Origin: Streptacidiphilus jiangxiensis
GTDB lineage: Bacteria; Actinomycetota; Actinomycetes; Streptomycetales; Streptomycetaceae
DNA length: 64,000 nt
Assembly: GCF_900109465.1 (NCBI RefSeq)
Contig: NZ_FOAZ01000013.1
Location: 1 to 64,000, forward strand
Reading direction: 5' to 3'
The notes under the pieces: generated by a model
What the model was told of the DNA's origin: nothing
Databases searched by the model: none
The model's input: the letters and a program-made list of their open reading frames with translations, nothing else
Shown here: piece by piece, positions 17,827-59,682 of the stretch
Position numbering within the stretch: position 1 is the first letter of the stretch
Layout: every line of letters begins with the position of its first letter
Translations under genes and position numbers: made by a program

Positions 17827-18201
17827 CGTGAAGGTCGTCCGCACCGCGGTGGCGACGGGCCGCGACGCGCGGCGCCGTGGGGCCTCGCGATGCCCACGGC
17901 TGCTCACCTCCGCCGGCGAGATCGCGGCTCCCTTCGGGTGAAACTCCGGCACCACCACGGGGCGAAGGTCACCGGAACGGCCGACGAGCCGGACGGACGA
18001 CACTTGCATTCGTGTACGTTCTGAGTCGCCCGTCCCGCACGACTCCGGCACCCGGAGGAGCATTCGTGCATTCTCCCCGTCTCCTCATCCGGCGCCCAGG
18101 ACCTGTGCGAAGAGCCGGTGTTGATCGGCATTCAGCGGCCGAGCGACCAGCCGGGACTCACCGTGGGCGACGTGATCCGAAGAACGTACAAGGAGAACAG
18201 C
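17827..18201. other. Intergenic region without a supported gene
   Basis: No ORF here has credible codon structure together with a family match. The stretch holds an exact 9-bp direct repeat GCATTCGTG at 18006-18014 and 18060-18068, 54 bp apart, which may belong to the promoter region of the SGNH hydrolase gene. GGAGGAG at 18055-18061 followed by GTG looks like a start, but the frame runs into the hydrolase gene out of phase. Confidence 0.4.
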
Positions 18202-19023
18202 ATGACCACGATGGACCTGGACAACCCCGACACGGTCGACGTCACCCTGATGATGGTCGGCGACTCCATCAGCCACGGCTCGACGGGTGACTTCACCTGG
18301 CGCTACCGCTTCTGGAAGCACCTGCGCACCCAGGGCATCGAGGTCGATTTCCTCGGCCCGAAGAAGACGCTCGACACCGTCGCGACCGGGCAGATGGGCG
18401 ACGAGGACTTCGAGTACGCCGACCCGGAGTTCGACCGGGACCACGCGTGCCAGTGGGGTCTGACCTACGCCAACGCGCAGAAGGAGATCGGGGATCTGGT
18501 CTCCAGCTACCGCCCGGACTACCTGCTCGTGCTGCTCGGCATCAACGACATCGTGTGGAACGACGTGAAGCCGGACGAGTTCGAGGCCAATCTGCGGGCC
18601 TTCATCGACCACACGCGTGCCGCGCGGCCCGATTCCAACATGATCATCGGCACGGTCCTGGACACCAACCGCGCTCACGACGAAGTCGACTTCAGCCGAC
18701 GGGTCTTCCAGTGCAACGAGGTCATCCGCAACGTCTGCGCGGAGCTGTCCACCGAGGAGAGCCCGATCGCGGTCGCGGACAGCTGCCGCGAGTTCTTCGC
18801 TCCGGACCACACGTGGGACGGCGTGCATCCCAACGGTCGCGGCGAACTGCGCATCGCCGCCGCCTTCGCGGACATGCTGGCGCTGCGCTTCGGCCTGGGA
18901 CAGCCGTACGCGCGACCGCTGCCGCACGTGGAGGACATCAACGCCGAGTTCAAGCGCAACGCGAAGGCGGAGATGCACTTCGAGGCACCGATGGGCGGAC
19001 TCTACCGGGCCACCCCCAACTGA
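18202..19023 (+). CDS. SGNH/GDSL-family hydrolase
   Basis: Encodes 273 residues; ATG at 18202 has AAGGAG at ideal spacing. The four SGNH blocks are present: GDSISHG (catalytic Ser22), a Gly-containing block around GQMGDEDF, GIND (Asn115) and DHTWDGVHPNGRG with the Asp/His pair near the C-terminus. Family members hydrolyse esters of lipids, polysaccharides or acylated small molecules. No signal peptide is visible, so it should be cytoplasmic unless exported by another route. The DUF4239 gene follows after 22 bp and is probably in the same transcript. Confidence 0.88.
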   Translation: MTTMDLDNPDTVDVTLMMVGDSISHGSTGDFTWRYRFWKHLRTQGIEVDFLGPKKTLDTVATGQMGDEDFEYADPEFDRDHACQWGLTYANAQKEIGDLVSSYRPDYLLVLLGINDIVWNDVKPDEFEANLRAFIDHTRAARPDSNMIIGTVLDTNRAHDEVDFSRRVFQCNEVIRNVCAELSTEESPIAVADSCREFFAPDHTWDGVHPNGRGELRIAAAFADMLALRFGLGQPYARPLPHVEDINAEFKRNAKAEMHFEAPMGGLYRATPN

Positions 19024-19045
19024 CCGCGCGAGAGGCCGTCCGCGC

Positions 19046-19852
19046 ATGTCACTGTGGTTGCTCAACCATCTCAGCACCCTCACCCTCGCTCTCGTCACCG
19101 TCGGCGGGACCGTTCTCCTGGCCGTCGTCGGCAGTGTGCTGCTGCGCCGGCGGCACCCGTCGCTGGCGCAGGGCGAGCACAACGACATGGTCGGCGTGAC
19201 GCTGGGGATGTTCGGTGCCATCTACGGGATCATCCTGGCCTTCGTGATCGTCACGTTGTGGACGAATCTGGCCCAGGCCCAGACCGTGGTCGCCACCGAG
19301 GCCACCGACGCAGCGCTGATCACCCGTGACGCGGCCGCGTTCCCGCCACCGGTACGGGCAGGGCTCGACTCCGCGGTCAGCGGCTACGTCCATGCAGTCG
19401 TCCTGAACCAGTGGCCCAGGATGCGTTCGGGGCAGGCCAGTTACGGCGCCACGGAGACGAATCTGCAGAGCGCCTACCAGGTACTGCAGGCGTACGAGCC
19501 GAAGAGCCAGCAGGAGCAGGTCTTCTACCAGCAGACGGTCAACCACCTCGACGACGTGGCCGCCCAGCGGCGCGCCCGCATCACCATGGCCGGGCAGGAA
19601 CTGCCCTGGCTGCTGCAGGCGTTGGCCTTCGGCGGGGCCTTCGTGCTGATCCCGCTCACCTTCCTGTACGGCACGCGCAGACTGCGGGTCCAGGTGTTGT
19701 TCGTCGCCTCCGTCGCCGGACTGATCGGGTTCAGCCTGCTGCTGATCGTCGTCATGGACCGCCCGTTCTCCGGCGACCTCAGCGTCAGTCCCGCGCCTTT
19801 CCAGCAAGGAGCCCTGACCCAGTACTGGCACGCAGCAAGCGCCTTGCGCTAG
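19046..19852 (+). CDS. DUF4239 (bestrophin-like) membrane protein
   Basis: Encodes 268 residues. Hydrophobic segments at about 4-28 and 46-72 (GVTLGMFGAIYGIILAFVIV) begin the protein, a soluble helical region follows (about 80-185, rich in Gln and Ala), then two more membrane helices (about 190-212 and 220-240). The GMFGAIYGIILAF pattern is typical of DUF4239 proteins, some of which are called bestrophin-like, although transport is not shown. The 3' end overlaps the convergent CqsA-like gene by 68 bp, so antisense interference between the two transcripts is likely. Confidence 0.75.
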   Translation: MSLWLLNHLSTLTLALVTVGGTVLLAVVGSVLLRRRHPSLAQGEHNDMVGVTLGMFGAIYGIILAFVIVTLWTNLAQAQTVVATEATDAALITRDAAAFPPPVRAGLDSAVSGYVHAVVLNQWPRMRSGQASYGATETNLQSAYQVLQAYEPKSQQEQVFYQQTVNHLDDVAAQRRARITMAGQELPWLLQALAFGGAFVLIPLTFLYGTRRLRVQVLFVASVAGLIGFSLLLIVVMDRPFSGDLSVSPAPFQQGALTQYWHAASALR

Positions 19853-21026
19853 CCGGTGGGCGCCGGCTCGCGCCCACCACCGCCCGGCAGGCGACCACGA
19901 TGCGTTCGGCGTCGACGTCGGTCAGTGCGGCGTGGAGCGAGAGCCGGACCATGGAGCGCCGTCGCACCGTCGCAGGCGGACAGAAGACCGAACCGAAGAT
20001 CCCCTCGCGCTCCAGGTCGTCCCGGAGTCGCATGACCTCGCGCTCGCCGCCCGCTTCGATGGAGACGATCTGGCTGCGCGAATCCCGAAGATTCAGCCCG
20101 GTGTCGATCAGCCCGCCCCGGACCAGGGCGGCCACCTGGTGCAACCGGTCACGACGCCACTGCTCCGCGCGCACCACGTCCAGGGCCGCGGCCAGACCGG
20201 CCACGTCGTGGGGCAGCAGCGTGGAACTGAAGATCGCAGGATAGGAGGACATTTTGAAGTAACGGGCGAACCGGGGCTCGCCTGCGGCGATGATTCCGGC
20301 GCGCCCGGCGAACGCCTTGGAAAGGCTGGCCGTGATGAAATGAACATTTTCGGAGATTCCGAGCTCCGCGACCATTCCTGCGCCGCGCGGGCCGTGCGTC
20401 CCCAGAGAATGGGATTCGTCCACGACCAGGACGCAGTCGGCGGCGCGGGAGCTCGCGGCGATCTCCGCCAGCGGGCTGACACTGCCGTCGGTGCTGTAGA
20501 CCGAGTCGACCAGCACCACTCCGCGGCCGTGCCGGGCGACGAGGCGGGCCAGGTGTCCGGGGTCGTTGTGCCGGAACGGGTGCACCGTCGCCCCTGCGGA
20601 GCGGGCGCCCGCCCACAGTGACATGTGGGCGAGCACGTCCACGTAGACGGGGGTGTCCGGACCCGCGATCGTCTGGAGCAGTCCGGCATTGGCCGCCCAA
20701 CCGGACTGGCACAGTACGCCGGTGGGGTAGCCGAGGTGGGCCGCGAGGCGCTGCTCGAGCAGCGCCTGGGGATCTCCGTCGGCAAGGAACACCCCGGACA
20801 TGAGAGTGGCGCTGCCGCGGGAGGCAAGGGCTCGGGTCATCGCGCAGGTGATCCGGCGGTCGTGCGCCAGCGCGAGGTAGTCGTTGTTCGTCACGCAGAC
20901 AGAACCCGGCCCGGGGATCGACCCCTCGAAGATCCATCGGCCGTCCCACGCACCCTGCACCCTGGCTGCGTAGAAGTGGTCGATGCGTTCACGGAATCCG
21001 GCCGGCAGGCGCGGGGGACGATTCAT
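19785..21026 (-). CDS. CqsA-like alpha-oxoamine synthase (autoinducer synthase homologue)
   Basis: Encodes 413 residues from ATG at 21026 (AGGAAG upstream). It is a fold-type I PLP enzyme with Lys237 (TASLSKAFAGR) as Schiff-base lysine and VDESHSLGTHG (203-211) as cofactor-binding block. As I recall Vibrio CqsA, the shared signatures are CQSGWAANAGLLQTI, AHMSLWAGAR, VDSVYSTDG, SSYPAIFSSTLLP and GIFGSVFCPPAT; these set it apart from 8-amino-7-oxononanoate or 2-amino-3-ketobutyrate synthases. CqsA condenses an acyl-CoA with SAM or an amino acid to give alpha-aminoketone precursors of CAI-1-type signals. No biotin genes are near. The last 40 residues, Arg/Ala/Ser-rich, look like a lineage-specific tail. 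A receptor kinase is not in the window. Confidence 0.85.
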   Translation of the reverse strand: MNRPPRLPAGFRERIDHFYAARVQGAWDGRWIFEGSIPGPGSVCVTNNDYLALAHDRRITCAMTRALASRGSATLMSGVFLADGDPQALLEQRLAAHLGYPTGVLCQSGWAANAGLLQTIAGPDTPVYVDVLAHMSLWAGARSAGATVHPFRHNDPGHLARLVARHGRGVVLVDSVYSTDGSVSPLAEIAASSRAADCVLVVDESHSLGTHGPRGAGMVAELGISENVHFITASLSKAFAGRAGIIAAGEPRFARYFKMSSYPAIFSSTLLPHDVAGLAAALDVVRAEQWRRDRLHQVAALVRGGLIDTGLNLRDSRSQIVSIEAGGEREVMRLRDDLEREGIFGSVFCPPATVRRRSMVRLSLHAALTDVDAERIVVACRAVVGASRRPPASARRLLRASTGSGLLAGKARD

Positions 21027-21083
21027 GTCTTCCTGTCGTCAACGGGCGGATGGGAGCTTCACTCCTGACACGAACGGAATATA

Positions 21084-21097
21084 GGCGGCCGGCCGCC
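21084..21097. promoter_or_regulatory. 14-bp palindrome between CqsA-like and EF-hand genes
   Basis: GGCGGCCGGCCGCC is a perfect palindrome flanked by GGAATAT and GGAATTC, in the centre of the divergent promoter region (21027-21166). It is possibly an operator, though GC-rich palindromes are common in this DNA. Confidence 0.35.
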
Positions 21098-21166
21098 GGA
21101 ATTCTCCTAGCGTTTTCCGTGCCGCGCCGAACCGGCCGGAGGAAATAGACCCTGAGGTGGATGGCC

Positions 21167-21724
21167 ATGATCACGGTTGACGGAGTCCTGGACCGCAAGC
21201 TCGACCGCGTCTACACGATGCTCGACTCCGACGGGGACGGCGGGCTCGTCGAGACCGACGTCACGGCGCTGGCGGACAACCTGGGCGCCGCCTTCGGGCT
21301 CCCCGCCGACTCCCCCAAGGTCCGGGCCCTGCGCGCCTCCCTCGCCGAACTCTGGAACGCGGACGTCCGGTTCATGGACAGCGACGGCAACGGCGTGGTG
21401 GACCGACAGGAGTTCATCGCCGGCATGCGCCGCTCGGCCGCCGACGACCGGGAGGCCTACCTCGATCGGCTGGACGTGATGGTCGAAGCATGGATGGGCA
21501 TCTGCGACGCCGACGACAACGGCCTCATCGACCAGCACGAGTTCGTCACCATGTACACCCGCACCCTGGGCGCTTCTCCCACCGACCTCGTCCTCGCCTT
21601 CTCCGAGCTCGACCTCGACGGCAACGGCACCCTCGACCGCGAGGAGATCCGCAAGGCCACCGAGGAGTACTACACCAGCGACGACCCGCAGGCGCCGGGC
21701 AACTGGCTCTTCGGCCCCTTCTAG
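21167..21724 (+). CDS. Four-EF-hand calcium-binding protein (calerythrin-like)
   Basis: Encodes 185 residues from ATG at 21167, which has the better spacing to GAGG (21154-21157); ATG at 21161 is the alternative. Four canonical 12-residue loops are seen: DSDGDGGLVETD (20-31), DSDGNGVVDRQE (71-82), DADDNGLIDQHE (114-125) and DLDGNGTLDREE (149-160). The second to fourth end in the usual Glu; the first ends in Asp, which usually weakens or alters calcium binding. Such proteins buffer or sense Ca2+ in the actinomycete cytoplasm. It is divergent from the CqsA-like gene. Confidence 0.9.
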   Translation: MITVDGVLDRKLDRVYTMLDSDGDGGLVETDVTALADNLGAAFGLPADSPKVRALRASLAELWNADVRFMDSDGNGVVDRQEFIAGMRRSAADDREAYLDRLDVMVEAWMGICDADDNGLIDQHEFVTMYTRTLGASPTDLVLAFSELDLDGNGTLDREEIRKATEEYYTSDDPQAPGNWLFGPF

Positions 21725-21803
21725 GTCTTCTCGGCCCCGCGCGCGCCCCCTGGGGACGGGGCGAGATTCTTTGAGAATGTCAACCATGTATGCTCTGCAG
21801 TTC

Positions 21804-22565
21804 ATGAGGTTCAACAGCACCGTCGACCACCGGTCGGCCCTCGCCGCCGAGACCGCCCGGTTCGTCGCCGTCGTGGAGCGCGCCGACCTGTCCACCCCCG
21901 TCCCGACCTGTCCCGACTGGACGCTGAGCGACCTGGTCCGGCATGCCGGCAGCGTCCAGCGCTGGTTCGCCGTGCTGCTGCGCGGACGCATCCAGCAACC
22001 GCCGACCAGCCGTGACGTCGAGCTCAAGCTCCCCGAAGAGGCCGCCGGCTACCCGCAGTGGCTGGCCGACAGCCTCGCCGAGGCCACCGGCGCCATCGAG
22101 GCGGGGAATCTCGACGAACCGATGTGGGCCTGGGGCATCGACCAGCACGCCCGCTTCTGGGTGCGGCGCATGCTCTTCGAGACCCTCGTGCACCGGGCCG
22201 ATGCCGAACTCGCCCTGGGCCTGCCCGTCGAGATCGAGCCGGCGTTGGCCCTGGACGGCGTGGACGAGTTCCTGGTCAACCTGCCGAACGCCTTCTTCTT
22301 CGCGCCGAGGACCTCCGAACTGCGCGCCGAGAACCGCACCATCCGGTTCAGCTGCCCCGACGGCAGCCGACTGGTCCGGCTCCGCCCCGACGGCTTCGGC
22401 CTCGAACCGGACACCGACGCCCCGGCCGACGCCGCCGTCCGCGCCGCCACCGCGGCCGACCTGCTGCTGCTCCTCTACGGCCGTCGCGACCGCAGCACCG
22501 CCGCCTTCGAGCTCTCCGGGGACCACGGCCTGCTCGACCACTGGTTCACCCACTCGCAGTTCTGA
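21804..22565 (+). CDS. Maleylpyruvate isomerase-like (mycothiol-type, DinB-fold) protein
   Basis: Encodes 253 residues from ATG at 21804. The N-terminal four-helix DinB-like domain has LAAETARFVAVVERADL, the hallmark PTCPDWTLSDLVRHAGSVQRW and a second His in MLFETLVHRADAEL, which fits a metal site of two or three His residues; a small C-terminal domain follows (FELSGDHGLLDHW). Members use mycothiol as cofactor for isomerisation or conjugation. TATGCT (21789-21794), 9 nt before the ATG and without a ribosome site, suggests a leaderless mRNA; ATGs at 21771 and 21786 are less likely starts. ATTCT-TTG-AGAAT (21766-21778) is a possible operator. Confidence 0.8.
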   Translation: MRFNSTVDHRSALAAETARFVAVVERADLSTPVPTCPDWTLSDLVRHAGSVQRWFAVLLRGRIQQPPTSRDVELKLPEEAAGYPQWLADSLAEATGAIEAGNLDEPMWAWGIDQHARFWVRRMLFETLVHRADAELALGLPVEIEPALALDGVDEFLVNLPNAFFFAPRTSELRAENRTIRFSCPDGSRLVRLRPDGFGLEPDTDAPADAAVRAATAADLLLLLYGRRDRSTAAFELSGDHGLLDHWFTHSQF

Positions 22566-24820: not shown

Positions 24821-25558
24821 CTACCAGGGGATGGTCCCGTTGTCGTCGAAGAAGGACCCGCTCGGGCCGCCGTCCGGCAGGGTGGCGAGCCGGATCGCGG
24901 TGGCCGCGCCCTGCTCGGGGGTGCGGGGCCCGTGGAAGCCCGTGAAGTCGGTCGCGACCAGGCCGGGGCAGGCGGCGTTGATCAGGATGCCCGTGCCGGC
25001 GAGCCGGCGGGCGTACTGCACGGTGACGGCGTTGAGGTACGTCTTGGACGGCGCGTAGGCCGCCATGACCGGGCCGATGTCGATGTTCGGGTCCGCCTGC
25101 AGGGTCAGGGAACCCACCGAGCTGGAGATGTTGACGACACGCGGCGACGCGGAGCGCCGCAGCAGCGGCAGCATCGCGTTGGTCACCTGGATGACGCCGA
25201 GCACGTTGGTCTCCACCACCGCCCGGACCACGTCGAGGTCGAGAGTCGTCGGATCCTGGTCCCACCCCGGCCCCATCTCCCCGGGGACACCGGCGTTGTT
25301 GACCAGGACGTCGAGGCGCCCGGCCTCGGACTCGACCAGTTCGGCAGCCTCGGCGACGCTGCTTCGGCTCGTCACGTCCAGCGCCACGCCGAACGCGTCG
25401 ACCCCGGCGGCGCGCAGCTTCCCGACGGCGTCCTCGCGCCGGGCCTCGTCACGGGCTCCCACGCCCACGCGGTGTCCTCGGGCGCCGAGGCCGGCCGCGA
25501 TCGCGTACCCAATTCCCTTGTTCGCGCCGGTCACCAGCGCGATCCTCGCTTCGTTCAT
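24821..25558 (-). CDS. Short-chain dehydrogenase/reductase
   Basis: Encodes 245 residues, a classical SDR: cofactor motif GANKGIG (about 11-17), NNAG strand, catalytic Ser in ISSSVGSL and YAPSK for the Tyr/Lys pair, with PG(LV) after the active site. The pattern near the start (ALVTGANKGIGYAIAAGL) resembles carbonyl-reductase-like NADPH enzymes. The substrate is unknown. It is divergent from the LysR gene at 25652, with overlapping GGTATC half sites in the short region between them, so the LysR protein is the likely regulator. Confidence 0.9.
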   Translation of the reverse strand: MNEARIALVTGANKGIGYAIAAGLGARGHRVGVGARDEARREDAVGKLRAAGVDAFGVALDVTSRSSVAEAAELVESEAGRLDVLVNNAGVPGEMGPGWDQDPTTLDLDVVRAVVETNVLGVIQVTNAMLPLLRRSASPRVVNISSSVGSLTLQADPNIDIGPVMAAYAPSKTYLNAVTVQYARRLAGTGILINAACPGLVATDFTGFHGPRTPEQGAATAIRLATLPDGGPSGSFFDDNGTIPW

Positions 25559-58878: not shown

Positions 58879-59682
58879 ATGGGCACTCTCGACGGCAAGG
58901 TCGCCATCGTCTCCGGCTCCGGTCGCGGCATCGGCCGTGAGGTCGCGCTCAAGCTCGCCTCCGAGGGCGCGGCGGTCGTCATCAACGACCTCGACAAGGA
59001 CCCGGCCGAGGAGACCGTCGCCGACATCGTCGCCACCGGCGGCCGTGCGGTGGCCTGCGTCGGCTCCGTGGTCGACGAGGACTTCGCCGAGCGCTTCGTG
59101 AACACCGCGATCGAGTCCTTCGGCGGCCTGGACATCATCGTCAACAGCGCCGGCTACACCTGGGACACCGTCATCCAGAAGATGACCGACGAGCAGTGGG
59201 ACGCCATCCTCGACGTCCACCTCAAGGCCCCCTTCCGGATCCTGCGCGCCGCGCAGCCGTACATCAAGGCCAACCCGACCGACTACCACCGCAAGGTCGT
59301 CAACGTCTCCTCGGTCTCCGGCCTCTTCGGCAACGCGGGCCAGGCCAACTACTCCTCCGCCAAGGCGGGCGTCATCGGCCTGACCAAGACCATGGCCAAG
59401 GAGTGGGGCCGATACAAGGTCAACGTCAACGCCGTCGCCTTCGGCTGGATCCTCACCCGGATGACCGAGGCCACCGCCGACGACGACTCCTTCATCGAGA
59501 TCGAGGGCCGCAAGATCAAGGCCGGTCTCAACGCCGACCTGGCCAAGCACGCGGCCGCCCGCATCCCGCTGGGCCGCCCGGGCACCCCGGCCGAGGCCGC
59601 CGGCGCGATCTACCTGCTCTGCACCCAGGAGGCGAACTACGTGTCCGGCCAGTGCCTGACCGTGGACGCCGCAGGACGCTAA
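58879..59682 (+). CDS. SDR family oxidoreductase (FabG/3-hydroxyacyl-CoA dehydrogenase-like)
   Basis: Encodes 267 residues. GSGRGIGREVA cofactor motif, NSAG strand, VSSVSGLFGNAGQANYSSAK (Ser/Tyr/Lys), and VNAVAFGWILTRM after it. A family-specific stretch of about 20 residues (TEATADDDSFIEIEGRKIKAG) precedes the C-terminal RIPLGRPGTPAEAAGAIYLL. It follows the MaoC pair, consistent with oxidation of the hydrated acyl-CoA; it is a different SDR subgroup from that at 50544. Confidence 0.88.
   Translation: MGTLDGKVAIVSGSGRGIGREVALKLASEGAAVVINDLDKDPAEETVADIVATGGRAVACVGSVVDEDFAERFVNTAIESFGGLDIIVNSAGYTWDTVIQKMTDEQWDAILDVHLKAPFRILRAAQPYIKANPTDYHRKVVNVSSVSGLFGNAGQANYSSAKAGVIGLTKTMAKEWGRYKVNVNAVAFGWILTRMTEATADDDSFIEIEGRKIKAGLNADLAKHAAARIPLGRPGTPAEAAGAIYLLCTQEANYVSGQCLTVDAAGR

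Follow-up and report, generated by a model that had tools for sequence, protein, structure and literature searches.

A CqsA-type synthase gene accompanied by a calcium-binding EF-hand gene in Streptacidiphilus jiangxiensis and other actinomycetes

The presence of a gene resembling those of CqsA autoinducer synthases in the soil actinomycete Streptacidiphilus jiangxiensis raises the question of what such an enzyme does in this host and with which partner it works. We analysed a stretch of 64,000 nucleotides of this genome (contig NZ_FOAZ01000013.1, positions 1–64,000), referred to here as the window. CqsA-type signals, which pass between cells of Vibrio and Legionella, have been described from Gram-negative bacteria, in which the synthase works with a CqsS or LqsS kinase (PMC3376566 and PMC5289986). 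The violacein phenotype of the Janthinobacterium jqsA deletion strain HH02 is reported to be rescued in part by cqsA and lqsA (PMC3566124). In its section on distribution, the review PMC5289986 lists cqsA homologues from five Gram-negative families (Legionellaceae, Vibrionaceae, Burkholderiaceae, Chlorobiaceae and Oxalobacteraceae) and from no actinomycete. Our literature search, which left most subscription journals outside its coverage, returned no paper that describes CqsA in an actinomycete or its pairing with an EF-hand protein. One paper retrieved for CqsA and Streptomyces (PMC12838073) was judged unrelated because the word “autoinducer” is absent from it.

The gene spans positions 19785–21026 on the reverse strand, starts with ATG and encodes a PLP enzyme of 413 residues that was identified as a CqsA-type alpha-oxoamine (alpha-aminoketone) synthase from its score against NCBIfam NF005526, its best PDB match and its position in the synthase tree. 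Against NF005526, which represents alpha-hydroxyketone-type autoinducer synthases, the protein scored 517 bits (E 2e-155; cutoff 428), and a genome-wide profile search gave 519.5 bits for the same ORF. The alpha-oxoamine synthase fold and the PLP lysine are common to BioF, Kbl, SPT and ALAS as well, and one may therefore ask whether the gene is truly one of these with a chance resemblance to CqsA. The curated models of these four enzymes scored at least 290 bits under the CqsA model and far under their own cutoffs (BioF, 225 bits against 426; Kbl, 171 against 460; SPT, 206 against 500; and ALAS, 142 against 339). Among solved structures, the closest was V. cholerae CqsA (PDB 2wk8/3hqt, E 5e-105), with the next structural family, serine palmitoyltransferase, far behind (E 1.5e-35). 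The genome also contains one other oxoamine synthase-like gene by family model, located on contig C59, for which bioF is the best model (384.7 bits, under the bioF cutoff of 426).

A maximum-likelihood tree was built from 47 proteins; in it, the outgroup of two BioF/SPT-like sequences split from the CqsA family, including the window synthase, with 100/100 support. Legionella LqsA, which the locus search did not return, and broad sets of BioF, Kbl and SPT sequences are absent from this tree, and the HMM scores therefore carry as much weight as the tree in the placement in the CqsA family. On this evidence, a BioF, Kbl, SPT or ALAS identity is extremely improbable, and the assignment of the enzyme as CqsA/LqsA-type can be made with high confidence. 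An earlier note on this DNA had proposed a CqsA-like rather than a BioF/Kbl-like enzyme and had named a position inside BioF/Kbl as the outcome that would count against it; the model scores, the tree and the separate best-bioF gene all place the protein outside these families.

The motifs and the PLP lysine agree with this assignment. Each of the four motifs that had been read as CqsA signatures was found and has its counterpart in the aligned V. cholerae CqsA: CQSGWAANAGLLQTI of the window synthase corresponds to LSQSGWNANVGLLQTI, AHMSLWAGAR to AHMSLWEGAR, SSYPAIFSSTLLP to ISYPAIFSSTLLP, and GIFGSVFCPPAT to GVFGSVFCRPAT. The PLP lysine is intact, as had also been claimed: alignment and site comparison match K237 (codon at 20316–20318, reverse strand) with K236 of V. 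cholerae CqsA, which serves as the PLP lysine in that enzyme (PMC3376566). R241 of CqsA is likewise conserved. The hydrophobic acyl-tail pocket of CqsA includes H30, V32, F79, F257, I263, F264, C346, P348 and A349 (PMC3285556). Six of these nine residues are identical in the window synthase, and the remaining three positions carry the changes H30W, V32F and F257M. The bulkier tryptophan and phenylalanine may shift the chain-length preference of the enzyme and, with three of the nine pocket residues changed, its acyl chain may be other than C8–C12. The last ~28 residues form a C-terminal extension that is missing from the S. natalensis orthologue (385 residues). It is within this extension that the 3′ end of cqsA overlaps that of a convergent gene on the opposite strand by 68 bp (19785–19852); this gene encodes a Bestrophin-like protein.

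Within the tree, the window synthase is sister to the S. natalensis protein (75% identity, support 100/99) and belongs to an actinobacterial group that joins the synthases of Cupriavidus, Pseudomonas and Oxalobacteraceae, and then CqsA of Vibrio and Chlorobium. A second, separate actinobacterial clade of CqsA-like proteins contains those of Actinomadura, S. spiroverticillatus, Kutzneria and two further genomes (G109 and G258).

With a genuine CqsA-family synthase in place, a Vibrio-type Cqs quorum-sensing circuit would be expected to include a sensor kinase, either at the locus or relocated elsewhere in the genome. When cqsA loci were searched with a profile built on the sensor region of CqsS, such a kinase was detected next to the synthase gene at 39 of 51 non-actinobacterial loci (several of the remaining 12 are incomplete) and at none of the actinobacterial loci examined. 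In whole-genome searches with this profile, no match at E ≤ 1 was obtained for the window's genome or for four others that carry the gene pair described below (G000, G147, G300, G369 and G103), whereas the positive controls from Vibrio and Cupriavidus scored about 1e-68. The absence of CqsS that had been noticed in the window thus extends to all five genomes, and a circuit with a relocated kinase is largely refuted and very improbable. Because there is no CqsS/LqsS kinase at the locus or in the genome, the locus is not a Cqs/Lqs quorum-sensing system, which is characterised by its cognate kinase, even though the enzyme is in the CqsA family. Some proteobacterial cqsA loci with full flanks, six in number and including those of Pseudomonas and Tistrella, were also found without a neighbouring CqsS-type kinase.

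Compared with the alpha-hydroxyketone systems CqsA/CqsS of Vibrio, LqsA/LqsS of Legionella and JqsA/JqsS of Janthinobacterium, the window synthase therefore represents the same enzyme family (equivalog score, PLP lysine and tree position), and differs in its actinomycete host, its three tail-pocket substitutions and its genome, which has no sensor kinase and instead has a conserved EF-hand partner gene. The latter (21161–21724, forward strand) lies divergently to cqsA and encodes a protein of 187 residues that was assigned to the calexcitin/sarcoplasmic calcium-binding protein (SCP) class and carries a C-terminal YYTSDDPQAPGNWLFG motif; this description draws on Pfam EF-hand matches, the linkage, an AlphaFold2 model and Foldseek comparisons. 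Four EF loops can be delineated, all on the forward strand. Loop 1 (D22–D33, DSDGDGGLVETD, 21224–21259) was recognised from the sequence and alignment and is degenerate in some orthologues. Loop 2 (D73–E84, DSDGNGVVDRQE, 21377–21412), loop 3 (D116–E127, DADDNGLIDQHE, 21506–21541) and loop 4 (D151–E162, DLDGNGTLDREE, 21611–21646) correspond to invariant alignment columns. Based on these loop residues, the protein is predicted to bind calcium. The 134 bp between the two genes (21027–21160) presumably contain the promoter region of both; alignment of the intergenic regions identified no motif shared across all loci, and loose similarity just between G300 and G147.

An orthologue of the EF-hand gene adjoins cqsA in eight species, namely seven Streptomycetaceae and Nocardia transvalensis. 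The pair is adjacent and divergent in the former (the window's species, S. natalensis, S. iconiensis, S. piniterrae, S. ochraceiscleroticus, G300 and G147). The linked EF-hand proteins share 76% (S. natalensis), 64% (G300), 61% (G147), 59% (S. iconiensis) and 59% (N. transvalensis) identity with that of the window. When 395 genomes of the family were searched with the EF-hand protein, the top five matches were all located directly beside cqsA.

Besides the EF-hand gene, no neighbour within about 8 kb on either side is common to the linked loci. The earlier note had regarded none of the genes flanking the synthase as a known partner and had suggested a survey of their conservation. Its view was sustained for the SGNH hydrolase and DUF4239 genes, which are conserved near no other cqsA and were rejected as partners, and not for the EF-hand gene, the one conserved neighbour. 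The DUF4239 protein matches Pfam PF14023 (Bestrophin-like) and has relatives of only ~30% identity in the genus. Short-chain dehydrogenase genes, which we considered for the role of a dedicated reductase, occur at positions 24821–25558 and 58879–59682 of the window and near some other actinobacterial cqsA genes, and are too common to be assigned. The cqsA-EF-hand pair has no dedicated reductase gene as a conserved neighbour.

The EF-hand gene could also be a passenger, adjacent to cqsA through shared recent descent and with no functional tie to it. Some of the linked loci could stem from few transfers, and SCP-type EF-hand proteins are frequent in Streptomycetaceae (matches at E ≤ 1e-25 in 54 of the 395 genomes). 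Against this, identity to the window's CqsA falls to about 45–58% among the linked loci, whose CqsA proteins are spread over two clades, with no other neighbour kept. In N. transvalensis, moreover, the EF-hand gene is upstream of cqsA and codirectional with it, and the CqsA protein groups with the other actinobacterial clade; one recent transfer therefore does not simply explain the pairing. In the EF-hand tree the linked proteins group together, with three unlinked ones (G184, G342 and G226) among them. We consider the passenger explanation unlikely and a functional link of the EF-hand protein to cqsA probable.

The gene for the synthase is rare. It was identified in one of 14 genomes of the genus, in nine of 395 genomes of Streptomycetaceae and, in an even sample of 396 genomes of the phylum, in the window's genome only. 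The G+C content is about 65–69% at positions 18000–22000 against 70–76% on both sides, which is consistent with acquired DNA. Horizontal spread is compatible with this patchy occurrence, with the tree and with the reduced G+C at 18–22 kb. A clean insertion site was sought in close relatives and not obtained, as a mycothiol-dependent isomerase gene alone is shared and its surroundings differ. The search for plasmid carriage returned matches on Gram-negative megaplasmids only.

The AlphaFold2 model of the EF-hand protein has a mean pLDDT of 89.8. Foldseek matched this model with S. coelicolor CasA, silkworm juvenile hormone diol kinase, calexcitin and Nereis SCP, with TM-scores of about 0.7–0.8 for CasA, calexcitin and the kinase, as well as with Renilla coelenterazine-binding protein and photoproteins including obelin. 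By sequence, juvenile hormone diol kinase comes first among the solved relatives (E 3.5e-18), followed by CasA and calerythrin. The correspondence in sequence and fold with CasA (PDB 3akb), calerythrin (PDB 1nya), calexcitin (PDB 2ccm), juvenile hormone diol kinase (PDB 7pjd) and coelenterazine-binding protein (PDB 2hps) covers nearly the whole chain. We know of no solved member of the calexcitin/SCP/photoprotein class with a genetic link to an oxoamine synthase. Several EF-hand proteins of this compact class, such as aequorin/obelin and coelenterazine-binding protein, hold small hydrophobic molecules, and by analogy it is plausible that the EF-hand partner controls the synthase in a calcium-dependent manner or binds its hydrophobic product.

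The reading that we favour, at a probability of roughly 60%, is that cqsA and the divergent EF-hand gene constitute a horizontally spread two-gene module, in which an alpha-aminoketone/alpha-hydroxyketone synthase is combined with a calcium-binding protein that either regulates it or binds the compound it makes. The CqsA-family enzyme would condense an acyl-CoA and a nucleophile derived from an amino acid (SAM or 2-aminobutyrate, the ones used in Vibrio), and the alpha-aminoketone so formed might then be converted to an alpha-hydroxyketone; the compact EF-hand protein would act with the synthase in response to calcium. With no sensing kinase, and with a calcium-binding gene accompanying cqsA across distantly related actinomycetes, the gene arrangement suggests a calcium-linked pathway, for a signal or a metabolite, that is as yet undescribed. 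A signalling role for the module is possible but less likely than not. More specifically, CqsS might be replaced in a kinase-free, horizontally spread alpha-hydroxyketone signalling module by the EF-hand protein, acting as a soluble, calcium-gated carrier or receptor of what CqsA makes. This proposal derives from analogy with the coelenterazine-binding and juvenile-hormone-diol proteins, which share its fold and have small hydrophobic ligands; we regard it as speculative and rather unlikely. Since many genomes of the family encode SCP-type EF-hand proteins, some of them beside flavin oxidoreductases, the partner may be a general enzyme-associated calcium protein and not a ligand receptor.

Alternatively, the locus may belong to specialised metabolism rather than to signalling, with the synthase providing an aminoketone (building block or volatile) for a natural product and the EF-hand partner serving as an accessory or regulatory subunit. 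The second actinobacterial clade bears on this. In its eight loci, genes for an acyl carrier protein and/or a ketosynthase directly adjoin the synthase gene; these loci look like an uncharacterised biosynthetic cluster, and their enzymes may use acyl-ACP. The lack of a CqsS receptor in the whole-genome profile searches and the rarity and patchiness of cqsA, which are typical of specialised metabolism genes, point in the same direction. The CqsA-like genes of Actinomadura and S. spiroverticillatus differ from the window's in having these biosynthetic neighbours and no EF-hand gene. Against specialised metabolism, the EF-hand-linked loci have no acyl carrier protein, ketosynthase, export or tailoring genes in common. 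We view specialised metabolism as a tentative alternative to the two-gene module with a calcium-binding partner.

With a kinase-less CqsA that is tied to a calcium-binding protein, actinomycetes would add to the range of this enzyme class a phylum in which it is seemingly undescribed, and the pair would offer a concrete two-gene test of bacterial coupling of calcium to small-molecule production or sensing. If the carrier or receptor proposal were true, calcium would be joined to chemical signalling in actinomycetes. Streptomyces natalensis, which has the closest copy of the pair that we found, is a cultured strain in which deletion of the pair is possible.

Several variants of these loci were also observed. 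In G345, a much diverged EF-hand gene occupies the same divergent position by cqsA (L075, 617–1159, reverse strand; L117, 6982–7524, reverse strand); its product apparently retains two usable loops, the other two of four being seemingly lost. In G147, an apparent second, weaker EF-hand gene adjoins the cqsA-linked one (L116, 6282–7649, reverse strand). Seven loci of the Nocardia nova group encode a more divergent CqsA-like protein without an EF-hand gene, one of which (L060) scored 357 bits, below the cutoff of 428; several of these loci feature genes for a MerR-type regulator and an ordinary histidine kinase within the surrounding kilobases. Four other SCP-type EF-hand genes of Streptomycetaceae adjoin flavin-dependent oxidoreductases (FMO-like or Pyr_redox), and pairing with single metabolic enzymes may be a general habit of this EF-hand class.
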